Of a stretch of 64,000 bases of DNA, positions 31,804-62,350 are shown in pieces. The stretch comes from Croceicoccus sp. YJ47. GTDB lineage: Bacteria; Pseudomonadota; Alphaproteobacteria; Sphingomonadales; Sphingomonadaceae. The stretch lies in assembly GCF_016745095.1 (NCBI RefSeq), contig NZ_CP067087.1, forward strand, positions 2,902,501 to 2,966,500. Direction: 5' to 3'. The position numbers were made by a program, and so were the translations under genes. Positions within the stretch are counted from its first letter, which is position 1; each line of letters starts with the position of its first letter. The notes beneath the pieces are model-generated. The model worked only from the letters and a program-made list of their open reading frames with translations, was not told the origin of the DNA and searched no databases.

Positions 31804-31883
<80 letters not shown>

Positions 31884-32925: not shown

Positions 32926-33321
32926 ATGGCCCTGTTTCCCACCGTCGCCGCGCCCCTTGTGGCGTGGCGGGCGACCCCGCTTGTCGAACAGATCATCGTC
33001 GAGGGGTTCGATCTTTCCAGCGCGACGTTCCGCCTTGAGGTGCGCGACAGGCGCGATGGCGGGCAATTGCGTGCCGGGCTCAACAATGCGAGCAACGGTA
33101 ACGAGGGGATCGAGGTCACCGGGGTCGAGACGATCGACGGTATGCCGGTCACGTTCATCGAGCTGCGCATCGACCAGGCCACGATCGACGCAATGCCACC
33201 CGCGCCCGAGGCCGGCGAGGACGTCGCGCTGGTGTGGGGCATGTTCATCCTGACCGTCGGCGGGTCCAAGTTCATGGCCTTCGACGGGCCGTTCATCCTG
33301 AAAGCGAGTGCAATATCATGA
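32926..33321 (+). CDS. Phage structural protein of unknown function
   Basis: 131 residues, acidic, beta-rich by appearance, with no signal peptide or membrane helix. It sits between the tail-tip remnant and the SGNH tail protein and overlaps the latter's start by four bases (ATGA). By position it is likely a minor tail or fibre-associated protein; I recognise no domain. Confidence 0.65.
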   Translation: MALFPTVAAPLVAWRATPLVEQIIVEGFDLSSATFRLEVRDRRDGGQLRAGLNNASNGNEGIEVTGVETIDGMPVTFIELRIDQATIDAMPPAPEAGEDVALVWGMFILTVGGSKFMAFDGPFILKASAIS

Positions 33322-35243
33322 CCATTCGAGTGAGCGTTGGCGATAATACCCGCGCGGCGGCGCTGTTCCTGCAGCTTGCGCAGGAGGCGGCCACCGGATC
33401 GAGCGCGTCGCAGCAGGCCGCGGCCGAACAGGTGACGATCGCGGTGCAACAGGCGGAACGCGCCGAGGATGAAGCCGACCGGGCGGGCATGGAGGCCGAC
33501 CGGTCGACGAATGCGGCCATGGAGGTGGTCGCACCGATCAAGGCCAGCCTTTCGACACCGCAGGCAGGGGAAGCGGGGGTCGCCACGCTCGCCGCCGGCA
33601 CGCGCAGTTTCGACGATAAGCTGGTGGCCGACGCGTCGATCGCCGGGCCGGGCCGGATCACCGGCTTCGACACATGGTGCTTCGTCGAGGGCGGGCGGAT
33701 CGAGTTCGTGCTCTATCGCGACAATGGCAATGGCACGTTTTCCGAAGTCGGCCGACGCACCGAGGCCACCACCGGCGAGGGCGCGGCGTGCAGCATCGTG
33801 TTCGACGTTCCGCTCGAGTTCGGCGATTACCCGGTTCGCACGGCCTATCGCCAGATCGACCCGAACGCGCTTTCGGCCATCGAGGAGCCGGGCAATTTCA
33901 AGATCGCGGGACCGAACGATTTCCCCGCCGCCTTCGCCAATGCCGACACGGCCGCCTCGCCGGTGCGGGCGATGGTGCAGACGCGATACGAGCAGGACGT
34001 GCAGACCGTAACCGCGCCGGCGGTGGCGGGGCTGTCGGATCGCGTCGATGCGATCGAAACGGCCCTCAAACCCGATCCGCTCGCCGTGCCCGACCAGACC
34101 CCGATCCAGACCCGCCGCCTGCGCCGCGGTGCTTTCGATGGCGGTCCGCGCCAGTTCGCCGCGGTCGATCCGATCGGCTTCTCGACGTCGGCTGTGGGGG
34201 AGAATACCTTCACGCTGACCGGGCAGGGCGTAAACGTGTACGAACGCGACAGCGCGATGATCCGCTTTATCGGTGGGCGCTGGATCCTCGGCCAGTCCTA
34301 TCCCGGCGGGCTGTTCCGCTACAACCGCAGCTTCTCCTTCCCGGTGACGGGCGAGATGGTGATGAACCAGGGGCGCAATCCCATCGTCGAGGTCGTCGTG
34401 ACCGGCGATGCGCTGGAGTTCCGGACGCAGGGTTTCGATCAACCGATGCTGGTCGCGATCGACGGGGAGTTCACGAGCTTTGCCGGCTATACCACCCCGG
34501 CGACGAACGCGCTGCAATGGGTGAGGCTGGACTTTCCGCAGGCCTTGATCGGCAAGCGGGTGCGTCTGCTCTTCCCGCCCGATACCGCGGTGGGGGCATT
34601 CCGCGTGCGGGGCACCCTGTCCGATCCGACGCCCGCCTATGATCTGAGCGCCGGCTTCATGGGCGACAGCCTTACCGAGGGCAGCAATTCGACCGAACCG
34701 CATCGCGATTCCTGGGGCAGCATTGCCGCGGCGCGGCTTGGCATCAAGAACTACGTGCTCGGCGGGATCGGCGGCACCGGATATGTCCGCCGGCAGGGCG
34801 ACAGGCCCAATTTCCTCGAGCGCGTCGAAGATATTCTGACCATGGTCGACGGAGGCCCGCCCGACGCGGCGATCATCGCGGGCGGCATCAACGATTACTA
34901 TGACACGCCGGAGCAGAAGGCCGCGTTCGAGGCCAATGCGCTGGCGCTGTTTCAGCAGCTGCGCGCCGGGGCGCCCGACATGCGCATCGTGGTGGTCGGC
35001 CCGCTGGCGGCAAAGACCGGATATGACGACGCGATGCGGGGCAAGCGCGATGCGCTGTTCGCCGCGCGCGCCCAGGTCGAGAACGTGGATACGGTCGACA
35101 TCGAGGATATCTTCGAGATCCCCGAATGGCCGACCTGGTTCGGTCTCGCGCCCAATGGAACGGTCGACGATACCCACACGCTCGATCCCGGCCATGCGTG
35201 GATGGGCGAGGTCATCCCGCAGCGGATCAAGCCGCTGTGGTGA
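33318..35243 (+). CDS. Tail fibre/spike protein with C-terminal SGNH hydrolase domain
   Basis: 641 residues from ATG 33318. An Ala/Gln/Glu-rich helical N-terminus (typical particle-anchoring stalk) leads to beta-rich central domains, then an SGNH hydrolase. Its block I is G-D-S-L-T-E-G near residue 449, the Gly block precedes G-G-I-N-D near 522, and the D-x-x-H block D-P-G-H lies near 624. The putative catalytic triad is complete. Such domains on phage tails deacetylate or de-esterify surface polysaccharide. The gene is intact although its phage is not. Confidence 0.8.
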   Translation: MTIRVSVGDNTRAAALFLQLAQEAATGSSASQQAAAEQVTIAVQQAERAEDEADRAGMEADRSTNAAMEVVAPIKASLSTPQAGEAGVATLAAGTRSFDDKLVADASIAGPGRITGFDTWCFVEGGRIEFVLYRDNGNGTFSEVGRRTEATTGEGAACSIVFDVPLEFGDYPVRTAYRQIDPNALSAIEEPGNFKIAGPNDFPAAFANADTAASPVRAMVQTRYEQDVQTVTAPAVAGLSDRVDAIETALKPDPLAVPDQTPIQTRRLRRGAFDGGPRQFAAVDPIGFSTSAVGENTFTLTGQGVNVYERDSAMIRFIGGRWILGQSYPGGLFRYNRSFSFPVTGEMVMNQGRNPIVEVVVTGDALEFRTQGFDQPMLVAIDGEFTSFAGYTTPATNALQWVRLDFPQALIGKRVRLLFPPDTAVGAFRVRGTLSDPTPAYDLSAGFMGDSLTEGSNSTEPHRDSWGSIAAARLGIKNYVLGGIGGTGYVRRQGDRPNFLERVEDILTMVDGGPPDAAIIAGGINDYYDTPEQKAAFEANALALFQQLRAGAPDMRIVVVGPLAAKTGYDDAMRGKRDALFAARAQVENVDTVDIEDIFEIPEWPTWFGLAPNGTVDDTHTLDPGHAWMGEVIPQRIKPLW

Positions 35244-36145: not shown

Positions 36146-36169
36146 CGCCCGCCTTGCGCGGGCTTTTTT
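36146..36169 (+). terminator. Rho-independent terminator between holin-like and endolysin genes
   Basis: gcccgc-cttg-cgcgggc followed by six T. It splits the late operon, so endolysin expression may rely on read-through or its own promoter. Confidence 0.75.
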
Positions 36170-36183
36170 GTGAGACGAACCCC

Positions 36184-36726
36184 ATGACGATCGATGCGAT
36201 GATCGAGGCCACCATCGGCAACGAAGGCGGCTATTCCAACCACCCGGCCGACACCGGCGGCGAAACGATGTGGGGCATCACCGAGCGCGTCGCCCGCCGC
36301 AACGGCTATGCCGGGCCGATGGCGAAACTGCCCCGTTCCGAAGCCGTGCGGATCTACCGCGAGGAATATGCGGTACGCCCCGGCTTTGCCGCGGTGGCGA
36401 ATATCGCGCCCCGCGTCGGCGCGGAGCTGTTCGACACCGGCGTGAACATGGGCCCGGCGTTTCCCTCGCTCTGGCTGCAGGAATTGCTGAACGCGCTGAA
36501 CGATGGCGGGCGGCATTATGCCGACATTGCCGAGGATGGCGCCATCGGACCCCGCACGCTGGCGGCGCTGCGGGCCTATCTCGGCCGCCGGGGGGACGAG
36601 GGCGAAGCCGTGATGCTGAAGGCGCTCAATTGCCTGCAGGGGGCGCGCTATGTCGCCCTGGCGCGCGGGCGAGCGGCGAACGAGGCGTTTCTCTATGGCT
36701 GGCTGCGCTCGCGGGTGGCGCTGTGA
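36184..36726 (+). CDS. GH108-family endolysin (N-acetylmuramidase)
   Basis: 180 residues from ATG 36184. The glycoside hydrolase 108 catalytic motif G-N-E-G-G-Y-S-N-H-P-A-D-x-G-G-x-T lies at about residues 11-27 with the catalytic Glu. The small C-terminal predicted peptidoglycan-binding domain follows (D-G-A-I-G-P-R-T-L-A-A-L). It cuts the glycan backbone to lyse the host. It has no signal peptide, so it depends on a holin. Overlaps the spanin gene by four bases. Confidence 0.92.
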   Translation: MTIDAMIEATIGNEGGYSNHPADTGGETMWGITERVARRNGYAGPMAKLPRSEAVRIYREEYAVRPGFAAVANIAPRVGAELFDTGVNMGPAFPSLWLQELLNALNDGGRHYADIAEDGAIGPRTLAALRAYLGRRGDEGEAVMLKALNCLQGARYVALARGRAANEAFLYGWLRSRVAL

Positions 36727-37569: not shown

Positions 37570-37720
37570 CTAAATGACGCCGTGCGCTTTCCCCGCTAGC
37601 AGTAGCGGCGTGGCGAAGCTGCTGCCAAGTTGATAGACCTTCCAAACCGATTCCGCTGTGTCGCCCCAACTCTTAGCCTCATCGGCCTTTTTCTTGAACT
37701 TCGTTAAAATTCCCCAAAGG
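37570..37720 (-). pseudogene. 3' fragment of the IS-split helical protein gene
   Basis: About 48 residues ending in a hydrophobic segment (G-S-S-F-A-T-P-L-L-L-A-G-K-A-H-G-V-I then TAG at 37570-37572), read on the minus strand directly from the left IS end. It continues the frame of the gene at 39371-40005 once the insertion and a 4-base duplication are removed (the excess length, 1650, is a multiple of three). So the IS inserted near codon 212 of a gene of about 260 codons. Confidence 0.7.
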
Positions 37721-39366
37721 CCTTTAACCCGGTTTATTCATGAGGCCGCAGCAGCGAAGTGGATGGGCCTTGATCTGACGTTGGCGGCGTAGTCCGGGCG
37801 AGCGTCTTCGACGGCATTTTTCACCGCGTCAGGATCAATGGGCTTTTCGAGGTTGATGGAATGGAGCTCGGAGTTCGGCGGCACAGCCGCACCGCCTAAG
37901 TAGGTGCAGGCCTGAGATTGGTGGCGATGGCTTTCAAAACGGAGGCATCGGGACAGGCTGACGCGAAGGCGACACGGATGCGAGTGGCGCTCTCAATGAC
38001 GCGGGCAGCGACCTTGAGCAGCCTGAGGCGCAACGTTGCGAACTCGGCGGTCGCGAGCGAGGCTGCCTTGGGGATTTCCTGCTGAATGCGCCACAGGAGC
38101 CAGTATGCGGCGGTGTGCAGGATGAGGCGCATCTGATTGGCGTTGGGAGAGCGGCACGAGGTGCGATCGCTGGCCAGCTGGGTCTTGTGCAGCTTGATCA
38201 GGTTTTCGGCCTGACCGCGCGCGCAGTAGAGCGTATCATAGATGTGCTCGAGCCTTCGGTCAGCGAAGTGACGACATAGCGGATGTCCATGCCCATCGTA
38301 CTGGCCTCGATCCGGGCGACGACGCGGCGCTGGCACTTCCAGCTTTTGGCCCCGTAGCGGGTCTCGGCATAGGTGCGCAGGACCGGGTACTGGCGCTGAG
38401 CGCGTTTGACCGCACAGGCATCGGCGGCAACGACGATTTCGGGATCGGCGCGTAGCACGGCGTTGGTCGGCAGGCCGAACACGTAGTCGACGCCGCAACC
38501 CTCGCAGACGGCCATGACCTCGGGCCGCCCATAGTGCCCGTCGCCGCGGATGGTGATGTGCGTTTCGGGCCATTGCCGGATGTGGCGCACGAGGCGCCGG
38601 ATGTGACCGGCAGCTTCAACACCAGACGGTGTCTTGCCGGTGCGCAGCAGCATCGCCACCGGTACCAGTGGCGGTGTCGTAGACATGGATCGGCAGGAAG
38701 CAACGCTCGCCATGATGACCATTCCAGAACGACAACTGCTGATAGCCATGGACGACATCGCAGGTATCATCGATATCCAGCGTCACCGCCGCCGGCAGGG
38801 CCGGATAGCTGGCGCAGTAGATGTCGATCATCGCGGCCAGCATCTTCGCCAACTCGCGCGTGATCGGTGCATTCTCCCACCGGCTCATCGTCGGTTGGCT
38901 GGCCAGCCCCGCGCCCGATCCCGGCAGCTTGCCCAGGGCCAGGCGGAAGCCCGGATCGTCGCGCAGGGCATCGAGATCGTCGGCATCCTCATAGCCGCAG
39001 GCGATCGCGAACACGCGGGCACGCAGGATGTCGTCGAGGCGATGGATCACCCGCGCAGGATCGCGCGGATCGGCAATGCAAGTCGCAAGCCGCTGGCAGA
39101 TACCCATCGCGCGCTCGGCCTGCGACAGCAACAGAACGCCGCCGTCCGAAGTGAGCCGACCACCGTCGAACGCGGCTGTGACTTTCTTGCGGTCGACCGC
39201 TGGGAATCGGAAGGGGCTTGCGATATCGTCGTTCATGGCGGGTGTGGCCTGTGGCATTTTCTGCCCTGCAGCAGGGCCGGTGTAGACACCCAGTTCCTAA
39301 TTCAGATCAGAGGCTTATGCCACTCCCGCCAACCCTTCGTAGCCAACCCCGTGAATAAGACGGGTT
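37721..39366. mobile_element. IS1380-family insertion sequence, decayed
   Basis: About 1.65 kb, the family's usual length. Imperfect inverted repeats lie at its ends: aacccggtttattcatg at 37726-37742 and, inverted, aacccgtcttattcacg at 39350-39366. aagg occurs at 37717-37720 and 39367-39370 and may be the target duplication, although the repeats are then not flush with the left end by five bases. The transposase has two frameshifts, so the copy is dead unless it moves in trans. Confidence 0.8.
37896..39257 (-). pseudogene. IS1380-family transposase with two frameshifts
   Basis: Starts at ATG 39257 with the IS1380 N-terminus (T-A-A-F-D-G-G-R-L-T-S-D-G-G) and the D-D-E region D-I-D-D-T-C-D. 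The frame breaks after H-V-Y-D-T-A-T-G at about 38675 and resumes as P-V-A-M-L-L-R-T-G-K-T-P-S-G. It then breaks again after V-T-S-L-T-E-G-S at about 38245 and resumes as H-I-Y-D-T-L-Y-C-A-R-G-Q-A-E-N to the end. All catalytic segments are present but in three frames. Confidence 0.88.
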
Positions 39367-39370
39367 AAGG

Positions 39371-40005
39371 ACCGCCGAAGAGTCCACGTTTCCGGTATCA
39401 GAGAACTGAAACTTGGAAGCCTCGTACACGATCATCACCTCGCGGAAGGCGACCAGCGCGTAACCCGAGCCCATCCAACCGATCTTCTCTAGCTGGAAGC
39501 GGAAGGCCAAAAGCCCATCCGTGATGGCTTGGCGAACGAACGCCGGGCCTTGGTCGCTGGTTTTTAACTCCTCGAGATACGCATCGATAAGCTCAAGGAA
39601 CTCGGCGACTTCCTGCTCGGTGAGCTTGGGATAGCGGACCTCTGCCCGAACGATGGGCGATAGGTACTGAAGAGGTCGCCTATGGTCCTTCATTAGGATC
39701 ATACCGCCTCTTACATCATTCCAAGCGACCCGCAACGCCGCGCCTGTGCAACCATCCTTGAAACGGGACAGGTCTTCCAGCGCGCTGGCCTTGTGGTCAT
39801 CATCCATGGTATTCGACTGCTTCACGACTTTGGCGACGAGGTCGGCTCGCTCTAAGATGCACGCGATGATCTTAACGAAGTCTGTGGACCAGACTTTGAC
39901 CCCAAACGAGTTCGCAAGAAATGCCTCGCCCGCTACGTTGTCGCTGTGGGTCAGGCGCTCTGCAATCTCCGCCAGTTCACGCGCGGGATCAGTTACCGTT
40001 GTCAC
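39371..40005 (-). pseudogene. Helical protein, third gene of the cargo cassette, 3' end displaced by IS1380
   Basis: About 211 original residues from a GTG at 40005, whose first base is the last base of the upstream stop (TAGTG), so translation is coupled. An in-frame start at 40047 lies inside the upstream gene. The chain is alpha-helical by composition, with regular L/E/A/K heptads (E-L-A-E-I-A-E-R-L and E-F-L-E-L-I-D-A-Y-L-E-E-L) and no signal peptide or known domain. Reading continues into the IS to a stop at 39307, giving a chimeric end of about 20 residues. Confidence 0.75.
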
Positions 40006-40646
40006 TATCGGACCTTTCTTATCGAATGCACCGCCAGAACGTTGCACACAAAACGCACGCCGCTCCAGCGGGCACTTAGGGCTGTCAGAAAGTACTGTAT
40101 CAGGAACAGCGCTCCCGCGAGCAACACTGCGCCTCCAGCAATGCCCACGAAATGGAGCGCCACAGGAACTAGAACAATCAGGGGCAGCGAGAGCGCGGCC
40201 ATATCGCGATACAGCAGGAAGTTGCGGTGTGCGTCACGAACGTTCGGCTCGGTCGGCACCTGCTTATAGAGCTTGTACCACTTGGCGTTCTGCTCTGCGG
40301 GTTCCGAAGGGAAGGGGCCTACGTTCTTCTTCAGCGCAGTCATATCTATGCGCTGGTCACGAGGCGCATACCTTGTGAATGCTCGACAACCCGGTAGCGC
40401 GTCTTGCACCTTCCAGAACACGATGCTGGACTTCACTTCATGCGGCAGGACATTCACTAGCAGCAGCACGACGACCGGCAAAACGGCTGTGCTAAGCACC
40501 CTCCCGACGCCTAGCTCGGTAAGGGTCACGCCGCGTGCGAGTTCCGGTGCCACAAACAGGAAGGTCGCCAGAACGTCAGCACCTGCGAGTAGGACTAACC
40601 ACTTCATGTTCTGTCTCTTGAGTGATGCGCCCAACGTTTCGCTCAT
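40005..40646 (-). CDS. Four-helix membrane protein, second gene of the cargo cassette
   Basis: 213 residues from ATG 40646, which overlaps the stop of the MBL gene (ATGA). Helices are at about 14-34 and 45-68, then a soluble loop of about 75 residues with many Lys/Pro/Tyr, and helices at about 145-163 and 168-190. The layout (two hairpins flanking a cytoplasmic domain) resembles membrane effectors or transducers, but no family is recognised. Confidence 0.8.
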   Translation of the reverse strand: MSETLGASLKRQNMKWLVLLAGADVLATFLFVAPELARGVTLTELGVGRVLSTAVLPVVVLLLVNVLPHEVKSSIVFWKVQDALPGCRAFTRYAPRDQRIDMTALKKNVGPFPSEPAEQNAKWYKLYKQVPTEPNVRDAHRNFLLYRDMAALSLPLIVLVPVALHFVGIAGGAVLLAGALFLIQYFLTALSARWSGVRFVCNVLAVHSIRKVR

Positions 40647-41509
40647 CCGGCACACTCCGTATCGATGAAGTAGTGTCCATCGTGGACGGTGAACTGAATG
40701 TGGCCGTCGCGGCGGGTTGTCAGGACGTGCCGGTCTTTCATCGTCGAACGGACGCGCACACCGCCTTCGCGAACGACGCGGCGATAGTCCGGCACCATAC
40801 CCCGCTGCGTCTCGTGCTTGATCGGCTTATCCGAGATGACCACGGCATCCGGCGTAAAGTAGTTGAACGCCTCTTCGCAATAGCCGTTCTCCCGACCGTG
40901 GTGCGAAGCTACCAGAACGTTCGTGCCAACCAGTTCGGCGCGGAAATCTGGCCGCTGCAACAAGGCGAGCCAACCAGCCTTCTCTAGGTCGCCGGGGAAC
41001 AGGATCTTGAACCCACTGAACTTGATGAAGACGACCAGGCTGAGGTCGTTCGTCTTAGTGAAGGCGGGGTAGTTGTTCCAAAAGAGAGAAGCTTCGATTC
41101 CGCCCATGTGGGCATCAAACGGGTACTCAGTCGGCGTGTTGTACGTTTCGCAAGCATCCACGTACCAGTGCGCATCTCTGGTGAGCGGGCCAGAGATCAG
41201 TTTCAAGTCATGCATCTGCAAGCCCGAGTAGGAGGGATTTCGGACCAGCGTTTGCACATGAACGCCGTCATCCTGTAACCCGCGAAGGTCGGACATGTGG
41301 TCTTGGTCGGCGTTGGTGATAAACAGGTAGTCCAGCACGTCCCGGCCTAGGCCGTGTCGAATGTAGCTGCTGGGGCGGAAGTCTGAACCTGACCCCGAAT
41401 CAATCATCGCTAACCGGCCCCCGAGCAAGCCGGTCACGTGCTGCACCATGGCGCAAGCGCCGTGCTGAACATCCCAGATGCGCAGCCGCATCTCCCCCCG
41501 TAACGTCAT
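40643..41509 (-). CDS. MBL-fold (ComEC-like) metallohydrolase, first gene of the cargo cassette
   Basis: 288 residues from ATG 41509; an earlier start runs into a tandem duplication. It shows the metallo-beta-lactamase order: strand I-D-S-G-S-G, metal motif T-N-A-D-Q-D-H-M-S-D-L (the first His of H-x-H-x-D-H is replaced by Asn, the second by Asp), F-P-G-D-L, and S-H-H-G-R-E-N-G-Y. The last two are typical of ComEC-type hydrolases, and the altered first motif marks a distinct subfamily. It is soluble, with no signal peptide. Likely a phosphodiesterase or nuclease. Confidence 0.85.
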   Translation of the reverse strand: MTLRGEMRLRIWDVQHGACAMVQHVTGLLGGRLAMIDSGSGSDFRPSSYIRHGLGRDVLDYLFITNADQDHMSDLRGLQDDGVHVQTLVRNPSYSGLQMHDLKLISGPLTRDAHWYVDACETYNTPTEYPFDAHMGGIEASLFWNNYPAFTKTNDLSLVVFIKFSGFKILFPGDLEKAGWLALLQRPDFRAELVGTNVLVASHHGRENGYCEEAFNYFTPDAVVISDKPIKHETQRGMVPDYRRVVREGGVRVRSTMKDRHVLTTRRDGHIQFTVHDGHYFIDTECAG

Positions 41510-43784: not shown

Positions 43785-43835
43785 CAATGGCATTGTAGAG
43801 GTCAGGGGTTCGATCCCCCTCGGCTCCACCATTTT
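43785..43835 (+). repeat. attR: 51-bp direct repeat, right copy (tRNA-Ala 3' fragment)
   Basis: Identical to 31833-31883. It contains the anticodon arm to CCA of tRNA-Ala, with no 5' half, so it is not a functional tRNA. Confidence 0.95.
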
Positions 43836-54941: not shown

Positions 54942-55018
54942 GGCGGAGTAGCTCAGCTGGTTAGAGCAGCGGAATCATAATCCGCGTGTCGGGGGTTCGA
55001 GTCCCTCCTCCGCTACCA
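54942..55018 (+). tRNA. tRNA-Met (CAT), elongator type
   Basis: 77-nt cloverleaf with encoded CCA: acceptor ggcggag / ctccgct, D arm agctcagctggttagagc, anticodon stem gcgga / tccgc around atcataa (CAT), T arm gggggttcgagtccct. An integrase gene points at its 3' end. Confidence 0.96.
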
Positions 55019-55097
55019 TAACTCCATGCAATTGCTGGCGATTTTCGAGAGGGCGCCGTGCCGGGTTGGGCTGGTTTGCTAACCTTGTGTAAACTAT

Positions 55098-56096
55098 TCA
55101 TGCCGAAAGCCTTTCAACTAGCGATACGATCACGCGGGCTTCATCGACGTAGCGTGCCCGTATCTCTGCAACTCGCTTGGCCGTCCAACCGACGATGCGG
55201 GCAATCTGCTCATCGGTGAGTCCCTTGGTTGCCAGCCATGTGACATACGTGCCGCGCAGGTCGTGTATCGTTCGGTTGAACCCATTGGGTTTGTGGCGCT
55301 GCCAGACGCTTTCCAGCCCGCTTTCTGTCCAAGACGTTCCCCTGCTGTTTCGGAGGATCGTGCCATCGCGCCATTCGCGGTTGTCCAGGTGCGCCCGTAA
55401 TTCAGGTAAGATGGGAATAACCGCGCGCCCTCCGCGCTTGCGGGTCCGTTCCACTATCACAGCCTGATCTCCCACCTGCGCCCATTCCAGCCTTATTAAA
55501 TCGCCAAGTCGAAGCCCGGTCAGGTTCGCTAATTGCAGCGCGTCCAGAATATGGGCGGGGAAGCCTTTAACCGCAGCGACGGCTTTCCAATGGGCAGGCT
55601 CCCATATTTTATCGGACTTGTTGACGTTGTGCAGCTGCTTGATGCCTGCCGCGACGTTGATGGATACCCGGCCATTCTCCATGCCCCAGTTGAGCAAGGT
55701 TCCCATCATCACCGTGGCTTTGTCGGCGCTACGCGGCTGTTCAGCCCATTGGTTGCGCCACGCGATGATGTCGCCGCGCATTCTCCGATCCTCGAATGCC
55801 CCCAGTGTGGTCGCACCGAACCGCTCCGATATACGTGTGAGCCAAAGACGGTAATCGCGGATGGTCGATGGCTTTTTGCCGGTATATTCAGGACTAGCCT
55901 GATAATCTGCGATCAACGCATCCAGCGAATTAGCGGGCACAGCGATTCGTGCCTTCAATTCGATATCGCGGGCACGTTGCAGTTCGGGCGTGATGACAGG
56001 CTTTGCGCCTATCGCCTTGTGAATGCACGGCCCGCCCCGCCACGCATAAACATACCAGCGCAACCCTTCCTTGGACGGCTTGCTTACGATATGCAT
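55098..56096 (-). CDS. int: Tyrosine-recombinase integrase
   Basis: 332 residues from ATG 56096, one base after the previous gene's stop; a further in-frame start exists at 56135. An N-terminal arm-type binding domain (R-W-Y-V-Y-A-W-R-G-G), a core-binding domain, and the catalytic set: Arg in T-G-L-R-L-G-D-L, H-D-L-R-G-T, then G-W-T-A-K and the Tyr in R-A-R-Y-V. Intact and adjacent to tRNA-Met, so it is the element's own integrase. Confidence 0.95.
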   Translation of the reverse strand: MHIVSKPSKEGLRWYVYAWRGGPCIHKAIGAKPVITPELQRARDIELKARIAVPANSLDALIADYQASPEYTGKKPSTIRDYRLWLTRISERFGATTLGAFEDRRMRGDIIAWRNQWAEQPRSADKATVMMGTLLNWGMENGRVSINVAAGIKQLHNVNKSDKIWEPAHWKAVAAVKGFPAHILDALQLANLTGLRLGDLIRLEWAQVGDQAVIVERTRKRGGRAVIPILPELRAHLDNREWRDGTILRNSRGTSWTESGLESVWQRHKPNGFNRTIHDLRGTYVTWLATKGLTDEQIARIVGWTAKRVAEIRARYVDEARVIVSLVERLSA

Positions 56097-56097
56097 C

Positions 56098-56283
56098 TTA
56101 TGCACGACCCGCGTCCTGCGCCTTCCAGCGGTCATATTCGTTCCCCGGCGTCGCGGCTGTAGGGTAGACAGTCACACCGTCCGCGCGAATGTCAACCGCG
56201 CCGATCGCAACGCCGTATTCTTTGAGGGTGTCCAATGCCCTGCGCAGTTCTGCATCGGGTATCAGTCGGCGCTTAGCCGTCAT
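56098..56283 (-). CDS. Small phage protein next to integrase
   Basis: 61 residues, a basic helix then a short beta-rich end (D-I-R-A-D-G-V-T-V-Y-P). Located where excisionases usually lie, directly upstream of int, but no recognisable MerR-like or AlpA motif. Overlaps the preceding gene by one base. Confidence 0.65.
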   Translation of the reverse strand: MTAKRRLIPDAELRRALDTLKEYGVAIGAVDIRADGVTVYPTAATPGNEYDRWKAQDAGRA

Positions 56284-56732
56284 CAAACCGCCTCCCCATC
56301 CCATGGGATTGCCCAAAGCGGGGCTCTCGGATCCTCGGCCACATGCAGCCCGCGTTCGATGTCCCGGTGCAGGTTCACGATCGTGCTTTGCCGGGTGCAA
56401 TTGCTCGACGTGCGTGTTCCGCTCATCGTTTCCCGCGCGCAGGTTGCCAGATAGGCGAGAACGGCGGTGCGTTCTGCCTCGACCTGAGCACGCAGGACGG
56501 CAATTTTTTCCTGCAGGTGATCCCTCGCAAGATCGGCGTAACATGCCTTCGTGAAGTCCGGCGCATCGTCCTCATGTATGGCTGTCACGCCGCAATCGGG
56601 AAGTGCGTCAGACGCAAAATATCGACCTGCCTTATCCTTGATGCCGGTGTAACCCATGCTGTTCGGCGCATAGTATAGATCGCGCTTCACAAGCAGATAG
56701 CGCGGCTCCACGATTTCGCTGTTATCCTGCAT
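56283..56732 (-). CDS. Phage protein of unknown function
   Basis: 149 residues from ATG 56732. An N-terminal beta region (Y-L-L-V-K-R-D-L-Y-Y-A-P-N) then a coiled segment (L-Q-E-K-I-A-V-L-R-A-Q-V-E-A-E). No recognised domain. TGATG overlap with its downstream neighbour. Confidence 0.7.
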   Translation of the reverse strand: MQDNSEIVEPRYLLVKRDLYYAPNSMGYTGIKDKAGRYFASDALPDCGVTAIHEDDAPDFTKACYADLARDHLQEKIAVLRAQVEAERTAVLAYLATCARETMSGTRTSSNCTRQSTIVNLHRDIERGLHVAEDPRAPLWAIPWDGEAV

Positions 56733-56982
56733 GGTCGCCTCCTTCAGCGTAAACCATGACAGGCGGATGGCCTGTTCCGACGACACGCAAAATAACGCGG
56801 CCACCATTATTGAGTGCTGCCAGCTCTGCAGGAGTTGGCTCCCAAGCGGAGGTCATCGTATGGCAACCGCCCATAGTCTCGTCGCGAATGGCGAGGTGTG
56901 CGCAATCGCCATTCTTATCAGGCTCCCAGCCTTCCGGCGCGCCAAGCCACCTCGTAGATCCATTTATGCGAACAGGGATCAT
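56722..56982 (-). CDS. Small phage protein of unknown function
   Basis: 86 residues; acidic/aromatic with several G-W and T-x-W segments, two Cys. Overlaps both neighbours by 4-11 bases. Confidence 0.6.
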   Translation of the reverse strand: MIPVRINGSTRWLGAPEGWEPDKNGDCAHLAIRDETMGGCHTMTSAWEPTPAELAALNNGGRVILRVVGTGHPPVMVYAEGGDHAG

Positions 56983-57191
56983 CGTGTGGCCATCCTTTCG
57001 ATTATCGCCTGCGTCATAACGTCGAGATATTCTGCGGCGTGCTTGGGATTTGGGCGGAAGTAGAGCATCATGCCAAGCGTCAGGCTTTCCAGAACGACGA
57101 AAGCGTGCTCCTCTGTTTCAGTGCCCCTTATTATGCGTTGCAGCAGTTCGGGGACGAGTTCATTGTGCGCCTCTGATGCGTTATCCTGCAT
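56979..57191 (-). CDS. Small helical phage protein
   Basis: 70 residues, predicted all-helical (E-L-L-Q-R-I-I-R, A-F-V-V-L-E-S-L). Four-base overlap with the downstream gene. No function assigned. Confidence 0.6.
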   Translation of the reverse strand: MQDNASEAHNELVPELLQRIIRGTETEEHAFVVLESLTLGMMLYFRPNPKHAAEYLDVMTQAIIERMATR

Positions 57192-57492
57192 GGTCGGCGC
57201 TCCTGATTTGGGTGAGGGTGGCGCGGATTTTTAGAATAGCGTCACTCACGGCGTCGCGAAAACCCTCGGTGTGCAGGTTGATGGAGCCGGATGACTTCAT
57301 CGCTTCAAGCGGCAAAGCGGCGAGACATATTGTTTCCCCCGCCGTCTCCAACTTCGCCCGCAGTTCGTCGCGCTCGGCGCGGAGAGATAGGATTTCGGTC
57401 CTGGCGTCTTGGCGTTCGTCAAGAAACTCCTGAATGCCACGATCGTATCGTGTCCGGCTCAGTCGCTCCACAATGTCGGGTGTTTCAGTCAT
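57181..57492 (-). CDS. Small coiled-coil phage protein
   Basis: 103 residues with a central coiled coil (E-I-L-S-L-R-A-E-R-D-E-L-R-A-K-L-E). Overlaps the next gene by 11 bases. No known domain. Confidence 0.6.
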   Translation of the reverse strand: MTETPDIVERLSRTRYDRGIQEFLDERQDARTEILSLRAERDELRAKLETAGETICLAALPLEAMKSSGSINLHTEGFRDAVSDAILKIRATLTQIRSADHAG

Positions 57493-57787
57493 GGTGTTGA
57501 GCCTCCGGTGCGAGGGCGCGGATGGCGGCGGCTATAGTTTCAGCGCATTCGAACCAATTGGTTTCATCAAGTCCGAAAACGTCGCCGATCCCCTCGGCTT
57601 TTTTCGCCGCCCGCCCCAACGTCTCGCGCTCGAAACGGGCGAAGGCTTGAGCAAGGCTATGATGGTCAAACGAGCCTTCACGGATCATCGGCCCCTCGGC
57701 TTGTTTAGACGGAAACGGCTGCGACTTGCACCAGTCAGACGCAGCATCCCGCGCCGCCTGCGATACCGGTAGTTTCTCTTGGGTCAT
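57485..57787 (-). CDS. Small phage protein of unknown function
   Basis: 100 residues, mostly helical and Ala-rich, with N-W-F-E-C-A near the end. About 100 bases separate it from NinB; I see nothing coding there. Confidence 0.6.
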   Translation of the reverse strand: MTQEKLPVSQAARDAASDWCKSQPFPSKQAEGPMIREGSFDHHSLAQAFARFERETLGRAAKKAEGIGDVFGLDETNWFECAETIAAAIRALAPEAQHHD

Positions 57788-57885
57788 GGTGTTGTCCTAG
57801 AAAGAGGGTTTTGGGCGGCTGAAACGGGCTGTCACCCTTCGGGCCGAGCCTTCGTCTCGGCGCGTCGCGTTTCCATCCCTGCCGC

Positions 57886-58275
57886 TCATGCTGCCTGTGC
57901 TTCGCCATCGGACCACCGCACGCCGTGCTGGTCGCCGTAGGCCTGGATAAATTCGATAAGGTCGATCATCTGCGCCTTCGTCATGCGCGACGAACGGAAC
58001 CCGCGCGGGAACGGGCGACCGTCCAGCCCTTCGACAAACTGCACCTCCCACCCGCATGCATTCATGAATATGCTTTTCCAATCCTCCGGCGTGTGGCGGC
58101 GACCTTCCGGCATCGCCATGCTCACGTCCGTCAGCATCGCCCAAAGCTTGGCGTTCTGATCAAGCGTGCGCCGGGGTGGCTCGATTACCAACATGCTTCC
58201 CGCCGGGGCCTGATCGACAAGCCGGTGTGCGCGGTCGCGGTGTTCCCAAAGCTGGATCGTGTGGCCGTTACCCAT
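57886..58275 (-). CDS. ninB: NinB-family recombination protein
   Basis: 129 residues with the NinB pattern (R-T-L-D-Q-N-A-K-L-W-A-M-L-T-D, H-T-P-E-D-W-K, G-F-R-S-S-R-M-T-K-A-Q-M). Lambda NinB (Orf) loads recombinase on SSB-coated DNA and can stand in for RecFOR, which fits the nearby SSB and annealing protein. Overlaps the HNH-like gene by eight bases. Confidence 0.9.
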   Translation of the reverse strand: MGNGHTIQLWEHRDRAHRLVDQAPAGSMLVIEPPRRTLDQNAKLWAMLTDVSMAMPEGRRHTPEDWKSIFMNACGWEVQFVEGLDGRPFPRGFRSSRMTKAQMIDLIEFIQAYGDQHGVRWSDGEAQAA

Positions 58276-58609
58276 TGGCCCGCTCCCTCTGTATCTGGCG
58301 AATTTCCTGCGCCTTCGGGGACGCTTTCTGAAACGCTTCCAACAGGGCGTTCAGCGGCCGGTTCTTCCAGAACGTGCGCTCACCTTCGCGGTGCTGTTCT
58401 GCATGGCATTCCCGGCACAGGCTGACCGTTTGGAAGTCGTCCGGCTTTTGGCCCATGCCTGCCCCGCTCCCAAGCCGAACGTGGGCGACCTCGATCGCTG
58501 CCGTGGAATGACAAACGGAACAGGCGTGACCACGCACGAAAGTGCAATGTGCTTGCGAACGCCAGCGGCTAGCGCGCTTCGGCTTTTTCGGGATGCGGGG
58601 CGGAAGCAT
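58268..58609 (-). CDS. HNH-like zinc protein (Ref/DUF968-like)
   Basis: 113 residues: basic N-terminus, C-S-V-C ... I-E-V-A-H-V-R ... V-S-L-C-R-E-C-H-A-E-Q-H. This is the treble-clef Cys4/His arrangement of phage P1 Ref-type nucleases that cut at RecA filaments. The catalytic His-His region is present. Next to NinB, so recombination is likely. Confidence 0.7.
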   Translation of the reverse strand: MLPPRIPKKPKRASRWRSQAHCTFVRGHACSVCHSTAAIEVAHVRLGSGAGMGQKPDDFQTVSLCRECHAEQHREGERTFWKNRPLNALLEAFQKASPKAQEIRQIQRERANG

Positions 58610-58845
58610 CAGTCCAGCCCCAGCGCCGCTTTGTAGAGGTCCAGCACGCTTTCCATTTCGCGCCGGTCGTCGGGATTCATCGCGCGAAGGCGAACGACCT
58701 GGCGGACGATCTTCGCGTCATATCCTACGGCCTTCGCCTCGCCGTAGACTTCCTTGATGTCGTCGGCGATGCCCTTCTTTTCCTCTTCGAGGCGCTCGAT
58801 CCGCTCGATCAGCAGGCGCAGGCGGTCATCGGTTTCGGTGGTCAT
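58609..58845 (-). CDS. GapR/DUF2312-family nucleoid protein
   Basis: 78 residues from ATG 58845 (agaggaa eight bases upstream); a TTG at 58866 is an alternative. The GapR pattern is clear: L[22 protein letters not shown] then A-K-A-x-G-Y-D. Chromosomal GapR binds overtwisted AT-rich DNA ahead of replication forks; a phage copy may serve its own replication. Confidence 0.9.
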
Positions 58846-58862
58846 GTCGCTATTCCTCTCGG

Positions 58863-59279
58863 TCAAAATGGGATGGAATCAGAACCAAGGTCGTCATACC
58901 CACCGCCCTGCGATCCGCTGTCGGCCTGTCCGCTGCCCCATCCACCGCCACCGGCGCTGGATTGGTTGCCGCGCGACTGGCTCCCGCCGGGCGTGCCCAT
59001 GATCGTCACATCGTTGGCCCGGCATTGCAGGTAGGTCTTGCCGTTGTGTTCGCGGGTGGACAGTTCACCGGACACCGCGACCTTGCTGCCCTTCACCAGA
59101 ATGTCGGACAGGCCCTTTGCGCCCTTTCCCCATTTGGTGACGTCGATCCATACGGTGGTCTTGTTGTCGCCGAACCCGGTATTGACCGCGACGGCAAAGC
59201 TGCACAATTCGTTGCCGCCCTGCGTCTGTTTATATTCGGCATCGCGGCCCAAATTGCCTGCGAGTGAGAGATTGAGCAT
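58863..59279 (-). CDS. ssb: Single-stranded DNA-binding protein
   Basis: 138 residues. OB fold ([25 protein letters not shown]), a Gly/Ser/Gln linker, and the acidic tail ending D-S-I-P-F that recruits partners. aaggaatt precedes ATG 59279. A phage version distinct from the host's. Confidence 0.93.
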
Positions 59280-59297
59280 TCGTAATTCCTTCTTGGG

Positions 59298-59930
59298 TTA
59301 GGCGGCTTGTTCGGTGAGTTTCTTGGCTTCCTGCTTGATCCAGCCCTTCGCGCCTTCGAATTTGGCGGCGGGCAGTTCGCGCAGGTCTTTGATTTTTGAG
59401 ACCGACAGAAACCGGTCGACCGGGAAGGCGGTGGCTTCGAACAGATTCATCAGTTCGATGCGCTGATCATCGGTGATTGTCGGCGGGGGCGGGGCGTGAA
59501 CGTTGGCCCGCTCTTTGTCGTAGAGGGCCAGCCCGAAAATGTTGCCGAAGGTCCGCGCGGCGCGCTTGAGCGCATCGGTCGCGGCCTCTTTCGTCGCGCC
59601 CTCGATCGCGTCGCCTACCTGCTTGGCAAAGCCGGAGCCGAAGCCCACGTCCTGCCGGGTTACGCCCGCCGCCGTCAGGGTGCAGACGCAGGTGTAAGCA
59701 GCCTGCCATTGCGGGTTACCCTTGCTGTCCTGCCCTTCGGAAAGGGCATCGCGGGACAGATCAATGGTGTAGGACCACCCATCGAAACCGAACACGCGGT
59801 TCAGTTCGTTCATCACGAACCAGCCTTCGAGGTAGTCGCCCTTCGGGCCGAACTTGCCTTCGGGCTTGCGAACGTTCTTCGGGTCGAGCGGTGCTTTCAG
59901 CATCGCATTCTGTGCTTCGGTGAGGCTCAT
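59298..59930 (-). CDS. Rad52-like single-strand annealing protein
   Basis: 210 residues: [18 protein letters not shown] and G[19 protein letters not shown] match the Rad52/22 family of phage recombinases. Would anneal complementary ssDNA during replication and exchange. Four-base overlap with the HNH gene. Confidence 0.9.
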
Positions 59931-60343
59931 GCGGCTTTTCCTTTCCTATACTTACGTTGGCGCGCTGCGGTGCAAATCCGACAATCACGGGAGGCGATCT
60001 TACCTGGGCGCCAGTAAGTGTTTTCAAGGGTATAGGGGTGTCCATTGGCACACACCGCTTTCGATTGGCCTTGCTGCCGCCCCTTCCGTGCCGCGTCGCG
60101 CTGGTTTTCGCTCAAGGTTCCGGCCCACAAGTGGTCAGGGTTAACGCATTTCGGGTTGTCGCAAGTGTGGCAGATTACTTTCCCGATCGGGATCGGACCC
60201 TTTGTAAGTTCAAAGGATACCCGATGGGCTAAGCGAGAGTTGTAGCGCCCATATCCATGCCGATCGCAATAACCCTGCCAATCGAAACAGCCGTTGGGAG
60301 ACAGCCCGACCTTGCGATAAAATAGCGAATTGGTCGAAGTCAT
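59927..60343 (-). CDS. HNH endonuclease
   Basis: 138 residues. N-terminal strand pair with C-F-D-W-Q-G-Y and G-Y-G-R, then [16 protein letters not shown]-x-C-V-N-P-D-H-L-W, and a C-terminal C-A-N-G-H ... C-R-I-C zinc site. HNH_3 homing-type nuclease. It is inserted exactly between two phage genes with four-base overlaps on both sides. Confidence 0.88.
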
Positions 60344-61002
60344 GCGGCGCGCCTTTCGGTATCAATCCGAACACCCGGCAGCTTGGCCGGCAGCGAACGC
60401 TGTGCGTATTCAGCCAGCCATTCGGTCAGGGCGTCGGGGTCGTTCTTCATCACGTGCTGCAACAGAGTCTTGCGGTCCTCGATGACGGCAATCTGCCGGG
60501 TCCGCAGGCCGGTGGGCGCGCGGTCGATCTTGTTCGCCGTCGCCTTCAACTTGCTGGCGCGTTTGAGCTGCTGTTCGGCCTCGAACCTCTGTTCCAGGCT
60601 TTCGGAAGCTTGCAGGGCATCCCGTGCAGCCTGTTCCTTCGCCTCGGCTTCCTCGCGTGCCTTGCGGGCGGCTTCGTCCTTTTCGCGCTGCTTGGCGGTC
60701 CGGTAGGGCGTCAGCAGAGCCTTGATTTCGGCGGCGGCGGCATCGAGGCGGCTTGTGACCGGCTTCCATGCAGCATCGACGGCCCGCTCCGCTTTGAGAT
60801 GCGGTTCCTTCTCGGCCTTGCGCTTGGCTTCCGCATCCTTCTTGGCGGTGCGAACATCGTCCAGCAGCGCATCGAGAGCGGCGTCCTGCTCGTCGTTGGT
60901 GACGGTCGCGCCTTCGGTGCTGTCGGAGATCAGCTTGAACAGATCCTCGACATGATCGAGCATGGCTTCATGCGGTGCGCGGTTATGGCCGATCCCGGTC
61001 AT
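60340..61002 (-). CDS. Coiled-coil phage protein
   Basis: 220 residues, overwhelmingly helical, very Ala/Glu/Lys-rich at 70-150, with a globular end. Often found beside phage annealing proteins; no enzymatic motif. Confidence 0.75.
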
Positions 61003-61199
61003 GCCGCTTTCCTCGACGCGCGGGCCACCTCGACGGCATCGCGGACCTCGCCGGACACGCCTACACTGCCGTCCATCATTTCGACGTAGATGCGGCCACA
61101 GGACGCCATGATGTGCTTGATGCGGTTCCTCTCCATGTATTCGCGGATGCTTCCGGCCTCATTGAAAAGCGGGTCGGGAATGGGGAGGTCATGCTTCAT
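60999..61199 (-). CDS. Small phage protein
   Basis: 66 residues from ATG 61199. M-K-H-D-L-P-I-P-D-P-L-F-N-E, then a beta-rich middle. No domain. ATGA overlaps on both sides. Confidence 0.6.
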   Translation of the reverse strand: MKHDLPIPDPLFNEAGSIREYMERNRIKHIMASCGRIYVEMMDGSVGVSGEVRDAVEVARASRKAA

Positions 61200-61330
61200 C
61201 GCGCATTCCTTTCGTTGCAGGCGCGGCGTGTTTGAGGGACAGGCGCTCCGCAGGATGGGCAGTCTCGCGTTTCGCCGTATTTGCTGGTGCAAATCAGGTC
61301 ATCGCAAACGGCGCATGCGTATCCGTTCAT
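61196..61330 (-). CDS. 44-residue zinc-ribbon protein
   Basis: From ATG 61330 (ggaatgcgcg context). Contains C-A-V-C, a further Cys, and C-P-S-C, a minimal Cys4 knuckle. Coupled by ATGA to the next gene. Confidence 0.6.
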   Translation of the reverse strand: MNGYACAVCDDLICTSKYGETRDCPSCGAPVPQTRRACNERNAR

Positions 61331-61470
61331 CGCGCATTCCTTTCGTTGCGCTCGATCCATGCCTGTGCAGCAGGCCGGGCGAGGGCGTTGGTGATTTCAT
61401 CTTGGCGGCTCATGGGCAGAAGGTCCGCAAAGCTGCGGGACGGGCGCGCGGTGGCGAAGATGCGGGTCAT
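61327..61470 (-). CDS. 47-residue phage protein
   Basis: From ATG 61470. M-T-R-I-F-A-T-A-R-P then a single helix. ATGA overlap at both ends supports it as a real link in the operon. Function unknown. Confidence 0.5.
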   Translation of the reverse strand: MTRIFATARPSRSFADLLPMSRQDEITNALARPAAQAWIERNERNAR

Positions 61471-62075
61471 TGCGGGGTGCCTTTGAGGGCTGCTCGAATA
61501 TCGATGAACCAGGTCGGCGCATCCTTAAGAGCTAAGCCGTTTGCCGGTTCTCGCCATGCCTCTCCCCACCATGAGACGATGTTGAGAACGTCAGGGGCCA
61601 CTTCGACGAGGATTTGCGTCCCATCCTTCGGGGCTTTTGCAATCGGTTGCCAGTTAACCCGCGCCGCATCGGCGGGCTGTGTGGGGGCGGCAACCGGAAC
61701 GACAAGCGCCCAATAGCCATCGCCGCGATCAGTCCACTCGCCAAACGACACGCTCTTGCCATCGGAGGTTTCGCATTCGACAAACCGCCCCGCTTCAGGT
61801 CCGGGCGGGCCATCGAAAACGATATGAATTGTTAAGGCCTGTGTGGTGCTGGTGCGGGTGTTCCATGCTGCGATGGCTTCTGCTTCAGTTGCGAAGCCCT
61901 GCGCCATTTCCTGCGTGCCGCCGTAAAAGGTTTTACAAGAGTGGCTGACGCCCCATTGGCGATACCAACCATATGGTCCAAACGTTTTGACACGATTGCC
62001 TCCACAAAAGGGGCAAGGCAGCAATTCCCGCGTCACGTCCACGCTCGCGCCGGTTTCGTTCGTATCGGTCATCAT
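61467..62075 (-). CDS. Lar-like restriction alleviation domain fused to DUF551
   Basis: 202 residues from ATG 62075 (or 62072). The first half is a Lar-type zinc domain (L-P-C-P-F-C-G-G, C-K-T-F, A-I-A-A-W-N-T-R). The second half is DUF551 (W-Q-P-I-A-K-A-P-K-D-G-T, W-W-G-E-A-W). Rac-prophage Lar reduces type I restriction; DUF551 is a phage domain of unknown role. The Cys content of the second Lar pair is incomplete. Confidence 0.8.
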   Translation of the reverse strand: MMTDTNETGASVDVTRELLPCPFCGGNRVKTFGPYGWYRQWGVSHSCKTFYGGTQEMAQGFATEAEAIAAWNTRTSTTQALTIHIVFDGPPGPEAGRFVECETSDGKSVSFGEWTDRGDGYWALVVPVAAPTQPADAARVNWQPIAKAPKDGTQILVEVAPDVLNIVSWWGEAWREPANGLALKDAPTWFIDIRAALKGTPQ

Positions 62076-62350
62076 TTTACTCCCCATTCTGCATCGCGTT
62101 TCGCCTGCATTTCCGCGCGCTCGGCGAAGGTCAGCGGCGGCTCGCCCTCGCACATGGCGCTGAACGCATCGGCGGCTGCGTCGTTTGCCTCGTCCTGCGT
62201 CATGGTGCGCCATCCGGTTCGGTCGCATTCGGTGCAGTCCTCTTCGGTAAGCTGAACGCGGCTGTTGAATGCCCATCGGCGTGGAAGCCACCCGTTGCCA
62301 TTGCAGGCAGGGCACTCGATTTCGGGGAGGTCAATCGTGTCGGCCATCAT
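62072..62350 (-). CDS. DnaJ-type zinc-finger phage protein
   Basis: 92 residues from ATG 62350. Two C-x-x-C-x-G-x-G-like knuckles (C-P-A-C-N-G-N-G-W and C-T-E-C-D-R-T-G-W) as in DnaJ's central domain, without a J domain, then an acidic helix. TGATG overlap. Confidence 0.7.
   Translation of the reverse strand: MMADTIDLPEIECPACNGNGWLPRRWAFNSRVQLTEEDCTECDRTGWRTMTQDEANDAAADAFSAMCEGEPPLTFAERAEMQAKRDAEWGVK

Follow-up and report, generated by a model that had tools for sequence, protein, structure and literature searches.

The stretch at positions 37570-41509 of the window, the whole 64,000 nucleotides of Croceicoccus sp. YJ47 DNA that were analysed, comprises two complete genes, a third gene that is split and an insertion sequence (IS) element. 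Its conserved unit is formed by two genes, encoding a metallo-β-lactamase (MBL)-fold enzyme (P0001, of the group called MBLb here) and a four-helix membrane protein (P0002). This corrects the first-pass annotation, made from the sequence alone, which had described a conserved unit of three genes with a helical protein (P0003) as its sensor-like third member; that protein stands outside the unit. The MBL and membrane genes are coupled, and they turn up side by side again in proteobacteria and in some other phyla. The reading favoured here, on balance somewhat probable, is that the window carries a stand-alone copy of a two-gene mobile module, anti-phage and membrane-acting, in a form without E1.

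The three minus-strand frames do overlap as had been described, with an ATGA joining the MBL and membrane genes and a TAGTG joining the membrane and helical genes, and in 21 of the 23 loci listed, the first junction, written as GGATGA, coincides with the called start. Regarding the spread of the membrane protein, 41 loci come from a scan with one genome for each species and three from viral contigs, while tblastn matched 21 plasmid records, of which nine were examined; among 199 sampled genomes of the family, P0002 occurs in four, its own included. The resulting set (L003-L058) holds 56 loci with the membrane protein, about 51 of them independent, as L003/L026 and L004/L027 lie on the same contigs and L022/L023, L033/L034 and L042/L057 are apparent near copies or belong to one genome. 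In 48 of these 56 loci, the membrane-protein gene has an MBLb or MBL360 gene as its neighbour on the same strand. Six further loci (L009, L011, L012, L014, L035 and L054) carry another MBL, MBL390, together with an E2-E1-JAB fusion, L035 having in addition an MBLb-like open reading frame (ORF) some 460 bp from the membrane protein, and the two loci with neither MBL nor E2-E1-JAB are L055 and L006, the latter a fragment without a start. The membrane-protein loci include Bacteroidota, Nitrospirota and Staphylococcus, as well as contigs labelled Nanohalarchaeota and Patescibacteria, bin labels that may be wrong. Co-occurrence in other genomes had been proposed as the test of the three-gene unit, and it separates the pair from the trio: no homologue of P0003 was found in any of the 56 membrane-protein loci (phmmer, E ≤ 1e-3), nor was the trio found in the DNA fetched around any of the five true relatives of P0003, so the three-gene unit is rejected.

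In a tree of 39 membrane proteins, from which plasmid loci and near copies were excluded, the window belongs to a clade with 14 members, all E1-less, with a support of 100/98, and the E1 label needs three changes over the tree, which has several long branches and an unsure deep order. Prok-E2_A has no match in the own genome, both positive-control records being matched by the same search. Given this clade and the missing Prok-E2_A, the pair without E1 seems to be a stable form, not a recent leftover of a larger operon. A search of the own genome with P0001 (E ≤ 0.001) returned only itself, and the ORFs next to the window pair include no recognisable second MBL, the MBL390 profile being used in neither search. 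In L041-L044, L047 and L057, an MBL gene directly follows the membrane gene, and a second MBL gene comes next in five of the six, L041 being the exception.

P0001 matches the PADLOC model PDLC04674 (PDC-M48B) at 2.9e-49 over residues 7-274 and Pfam Lactamase_B with 22.9 bits, just above the cut-off of 22.7. The N-x-D-x-D-H variant of the metal motif, noticed at first sight of the sequence, is present as N66, D68, D70 and H71, and these residues are invariant across 27 aligned MBL sequences, as are D174, H203 and H204, found in the further motifs GD174 and SHHG (202-205). Judged from this sequence pattern, P0001 keeps a ComEC-type set of putative metal-site residues. The AlphaFold 2 (AF2) model from the alignment of 27 sequences has a mean predicted local distance difference test score (pLDDT) of 90.3, and its nearest fold is the MBL domain of ComEC (9ic4, E 1.1e-14, 17% identity), followed by phosphorylcholine esterase; the same two groups are returned when its profile is compared to PDB sequences, with ComEC chains at 1e-7. 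The natural reading is that of a cytosolic metal phosphodiesterase, probably a nuclease.

The membrane protein had been described as two helix pairs around a soluble stretch, and this arrangement is likewise predicted by the AF2 model, hydropathy and charge. The model (39 sequences, pLDDT 85.7, predicted template modelling score 0.80) places long helices at residues 9-32, 42-66, 134-166 and 171-209, with short helices between, and 14 columns of the alignment (A2) are invariant. The mean number of lysines and arginines across the 39 relatives is 3.3 at the N end, 0.3 in loop 1, 13.0 in the middle, 0.6 in loop 3 and 2.6 at the C end, a pattern that, by the positive-inside rule, puts both ends and the conserved middle domain in the cytosol. 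P0002 is thus predicted to be a four-helix protein whose conserved middle domain faces the cytosol. It was also said to belong to no known family, and Pfam, PADLOC, NCBIfam and PHROGs gave no useful match, only hits at E 0.35 (an unrelated Pfam domain of unknown function) and 0.91, the best structural match of the model in the PDB having an E of 0.62 (Foldseek). P0002 as a part of ComEC is rejected on the lack of a Pfam family match and on the same Foldseek value, and no search made ties it to a known transport or competence complex, the alternative that had been raised beside the anti-phage proposal. A relation to Csx27, resting on an E of 0.006 for the L058 protein, was dropped as weak.

The membrane family of the window is shared by larger operons, as an E2-E1-JAB fusion is encoded in 21 of the 56 membrane-protein loci, 15 of them with an adjacent MBLb or MBL360; Prok-E2_A, ThiF and Prok-JAB were all found in the three fusion loci scanned with Pfam. 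The window pair itself differs in lacking E2-E1-JAB. These loci are identified here as the type 6a operons of Iyer and colleagues (2006; PMC1779556), described in the available excerpts of that source as simple operons, usually of two genes, for an E2-E1-JAB triple protein and an MBL; the excerpted table row includes 'Pnap', and L008 is Polaromonas naphthalenivorans, a genome of that row. The same excerpts make no mention of a membrane protein or a second MBL in the 6a description, and they name no modifier or effector for the E2-E1-JAB/MBL operons, within a limited literature. For a sampling independent of the membrane protein, Prok-E2_A was searched in 398 genomes of the phylum, resulting in six loci, five above the cut-off. 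MBL390 is encoded in all six, and an MBLb-group MBL or MBL360 in three (L095, L096 and L097). Another membrane-like protein, recognised by eye, follows the fusion in four (L095, L096, L097 and L099), and in L094, where the fusion gene is interrupted, a patatin follows (PlpD, 1.2e-5). The same order is seen in three plasmid operons with a second membrane family (31 records matched, the family being assigned by eye), with MBLb behind in two. Because the sampled operons vary at this place, between a membrane protein and a patatin, the position after the E2-E1-JAB fusion is taken as an exchangeable slot, presumably for a membrane or lipid effector. On two plasmids, DUF2235 genes lie near MBL-membrane operons (L010, 7969-9270; L101, 5855-7399), possibly encoding a lipid-attacking effector.

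The long-tailed MBL390 proteins, whose genes lie upstream of the fusion in the sampled larger operons, end in RAG, HG or YG, some with one to six more residues. A tail rule written after the tails had been read, requiring A, H or Y and then G within the last eight residues, fits MBL390 in 24 of 24 cases (20/20 non-redundant; one of the 24 is a frame-broken gene piece), compared to 0/9 for MBL360, 3/33 for MBLb and 29/343 for other ORFs. Only three plasmid copies postdate the rule; two of them end in AHG and EHG, and the third resembles a copy already counted. The MBLb enzymes also have a terminal glycine in 24 of the 27 sequences of their alignment (A3) and in 15 of 33 non-redundant sequences across the wider group; as it occurs with and without E1, this glycine is no evidence of conjugation, and a conjugation tail in the window enzyme was dropped as a candidate. 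Type II CBASS (cyclic oligonucleotide-based antiphage signalling system) operons encode cGAS, the E1-E2 protein Cap2, the JAB protein Cap3 and an effector. According to the excerpts of PMC10097602 at hand, the C-terminal Gly/Ala of cGAS is needed for conjugation; operons that have Cap2 and Cap3 in full length conserve it, in contrast to the other CBASS operons compared there. By analogy, the glycine tail of MBL390 is probably activated and conjugated as that of cGAS is. This modifier reading concerns the larger operons and not the window directly.

The full MBL operons and type II CBASS have by analogy the same layout, with a glycine-tailed enzyme, conjugation and JAB parts, and a variable membrane or phospholipase effector, except that an MBL takes the place of the nucleotidyltransferase; the window has no conjugation genes, and none of its three cassette proteins, to which this search was limited, matches a CD-NTase model. 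It is possible, and proposed only tentatively, that MBL enzymes are the founders of a separate immune lineage resembling CBASS, in which MBL390 would replace cGAS and itself be the ubiquitin-like modifier, with JAB trimming its glycine tail and E2-E1 conjugating it, and would control exchangeable membrane effectors. The window pair, a ComEC-like enzyme sufficient in itself together with a four-helix effector, would then be the conjugation-free minimal form, standing to the full MBL operons as CBASS lacking Cap2 and Cap3 stands to type II. If true, ubiquitin-like tagging of an immune enzyme would not be special to cGAS.

Among the closest known systems, PDC-M48 of PADLOC is matched by P0001 through its component B, with the match given above as the best one. 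P0002 and ten of its relatives match no PDC-M48A model, and PDC-M48A could be tied to no gene, as its model PDLC04672 (125 positions) matched neither the own genome (0/1) nor any of nine genomes or records (0/9), no control match being obtained either time. ComEC shares the MBL fold and motif with P0001, but no competence membrane domain was found in P0002 with Pfam or Foldseek. The similarity of P0001 to LmuA (5.2e-6), RTasMBL (9.3e-5) and Avs1a (0.079), MBL proteins of other defence systems, is weak and far below that to PDC-M48B, and no such partner is present among the three proteins. No description of the membrane family with an MBL was found in the open-licence literature consulted, which does not prove that none exists. 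Operons of E2-E1-JAB and MBL have been in print since 2006 (PMC1779556, as excerpted); the new parts are the membrane family, the E1-less pair and the reading of an MBL as modifier. The pair supplies these operons with a candidate effector family and a minimal two-gene form, and the terminal glycine motif of MBL390 supplies a candidate modifier.

According to the favoured reading, the cytosolic MBL would dock on the middle domain of the four-helix protein, phage infection would activate this complex at the membrane, and the infected cell would be stopped by membrane damage through the four-helix protein, by nucleic-acid cleavage or by both, as in abortive infection. In the larger operons, these families are accompanied by E2-E1-JAB and by MBL390, a second MBL whose glycine tail is probably conjugated, the window being the E1-less form. 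The earlier proposal of a plausible anti-phage module, made up of an MBL like that of ComEC and a coupled membrane partner, is supported, with defence as an inferred role. The pair is carried on plasmids and viral contigs and near integrases. The neighbouring ORFs with 260 residues or more number 255; among the nearest 111, which were scanned, the PADLOC matches listed (25 of 248 families) include a type I methyltransferase and mad2, three times each, and AbiEii, HmaC and DUF499, twice each; the Pfam matches listed (25 of 105) include phage integrase seven times, AbiEii three times and SduA_C (Shedu) twice. L102 encodes a WYL regulator, as do L011 and L012, where it is next to the membrane protein.

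Several points weigh against this reading. The defence role of the pair is inferred, and the neighbourhood signal is descriptive. The MBL fold group includes non-nucleases, and P0001 has no match in the phage collection. No solved relative of P0002 was found in the searches made, so that pore formation by it is conjecture. The L007 membrane protein weakly matches the CBASS 2TM effector model (E 9.6e-4); looking for that model in 349 genomes gave two marginal matches and added no strength, and this relation was dropped. The membrane family of the window is present in only one of the six loci sampled with Prok-E2_A (L098). In three of the six further loci with MBL390, the membrane protein and the E2-E1-JAB genes do not form a single run, the latter lying on the opposite strand in L012 and L054 and beyond the WYL gene in L011; in L009, the fusion is frame-broken. 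The window copy may also be decaying along with its prophage.

The coupling of two genes, their carriage on mobile elements and the exchange of MBL and membrane families between operons would also suit a toxin with its neutraliser, where the MBL silences a membrane toxin, by binding it or by destroying an activating signal, and the pair mainly stabilises mobile elements, any effect on phages being secondary. This explanation is rather unlikely, as the MBL retains its metal-site residues, which is unusual for a pure binding antitoxin, and as six of the 56 loci are without an adjacent MBLb or MBL360 though MBL390 is in the locus, with the MBLb-like ORF of L035 at its distance. A third view takes the pair as a prophage fitness gene, a membrane-tethered nuclease acting at the inner membrane in superinfection exclusion or interfering with DNA entry there, with the membrane protein as its anchor or docking site and without cell death. 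The ComEC-like fold and the position beside a lysozyme gene in a prophage remnant would agree with it; its chances are nevertheless poor, given that viral contigs gave only three matches, that P0001 has none in the phage collection and that E2-E1-JAB accompanies the membrane protein in 21 of the 56 loci.

As for a three-gene defence cassette with the helical protein as sensor, the TAGTG overlap in the window is its one recommendation, and it is hardly credible with that protein missing from every membrane-protein locus, with homologues found apart from the pair and with its gene split by the IS element. P0003 has no useful match in Pfam, PADLOC, NCBIfam or PHROGs and none in plasmids, phages or viral contigs, and the profile of its small family finds nothing among PDB sequences. 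It matches eight of 397 genomes of the family: its own, two (G258 and G321) at the IS end only, and five with true relatives, 25-47% identical in alignment, near which neither the MBL nor the membrane protein was found in the 8-13.5 kb fetched, two of them lying near contig ends. The P0003 frame runs into the IS element, in which the last 18 or so codons lie, and its last residues recur at other copies of the IS. The IS element, presumably IS1380-like, is flanked on both sides by TTAA (37724-37727 and 39365-39368). Its insertion looks young, because the own genome has two copies of it with identities of 99.7 and 99.9% along some 1555 bp, in loci that do not reach the other IS end. The transposase frame is split in the window despite these two near-identical copies, and several copies are present in two relatives. 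Beyond the IS lies a piece resembling the 3' end of the helical gene (Table 1), which tblastn with the relatives of P0003 did not find. The helical gene looks like a passenger cut by the IS element and not a member of the module.

Table 1. Features of the cassette and of the element around it, with positions in the window.
Feature	Position	Strand	Remarks
MBL-fold enzyme gene (MBLb, P0001, 288 aa)	40643-41509	-	ComEC-like; ends in Gly
Four-helix membrane protein gene (P0002, 213 aa)	40005-40646	-	predicted N-in, conserved cytosolic middle domain
GGATGA overlap	40643-40648	-	last codon and stop of the MBL gene over the ATG of the membrane-protein gene
Helical-protein gene, 5' part (P0003, 232 aa)	39307-40005	-	outside the conserved pair
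IS element	37728-39364		imperfect terminal inverted repeats; transposase frame split
Piece resembling the helical-gene 3' end	37570-37723	-	beyond the IS; by eye, against the C-terminal part of P0003 relatives
tRNA-Ala(GGC)	31804-31879		
Attachment-site (att)-like repeat, 3' end of tRNA-Ala(GGC)	31833-31883	+	51-bp exact direct repeat
att-like repeat, other end of the element	43785-43835	+	51-bp exact direct repeat
669-aa protein gene	33234-35243	+	weakly similar to phage tail/hydrolase proteins (four phage records)
GH108 phage-type lysozyme gene	36154-36726	+	Pfam PF05838 9.9e-23, PF09374 5e-22

The cassette lies in an element that is well supported as a prophage remnant, in agreement with the location first given to it. 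The evidence comprises the att-like repeats, which consist of the last 47 bases of tRNA-Ala and four more and which bound an element of 11.95 kb, the lysozyme gene and the weakly tail-like 669-residue protein, whose end appears by eye like an SGNH hydrolase. The SRAP and HicB-like protein genes noted beside the cassette are confirmed there, inside the element. The ORF adjoining tRNA-Ala ends, by eye, like the C-terminal part of a tyrosine integrase, with no match in the PDB. The G+C content is 0.55-0.60 at 39-44 kb and 0.62-0.69 at 30-37 kb, that of the IS element being 0.65. Searches with P0004 and with the 758- and 406-residue ORFs were uninformative on the prophage, ten ORFs, some possibly in a wrong frame, gave a match for the HicB-like one only, and no phage was matched in megablast by the element as a whole. 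The PHROG matches were dropped as evidence for this remnant, since they belong to another prophage, beside tRNA-Met at 54942-62315, the cassette being on the other side of that tRNA. This second prophage has an integrase gene at 55098-56135, followed on the minus strand by NinB-like, SSB, RecT-like or recombinase, HNH, exonuclease and Lar-like genes.

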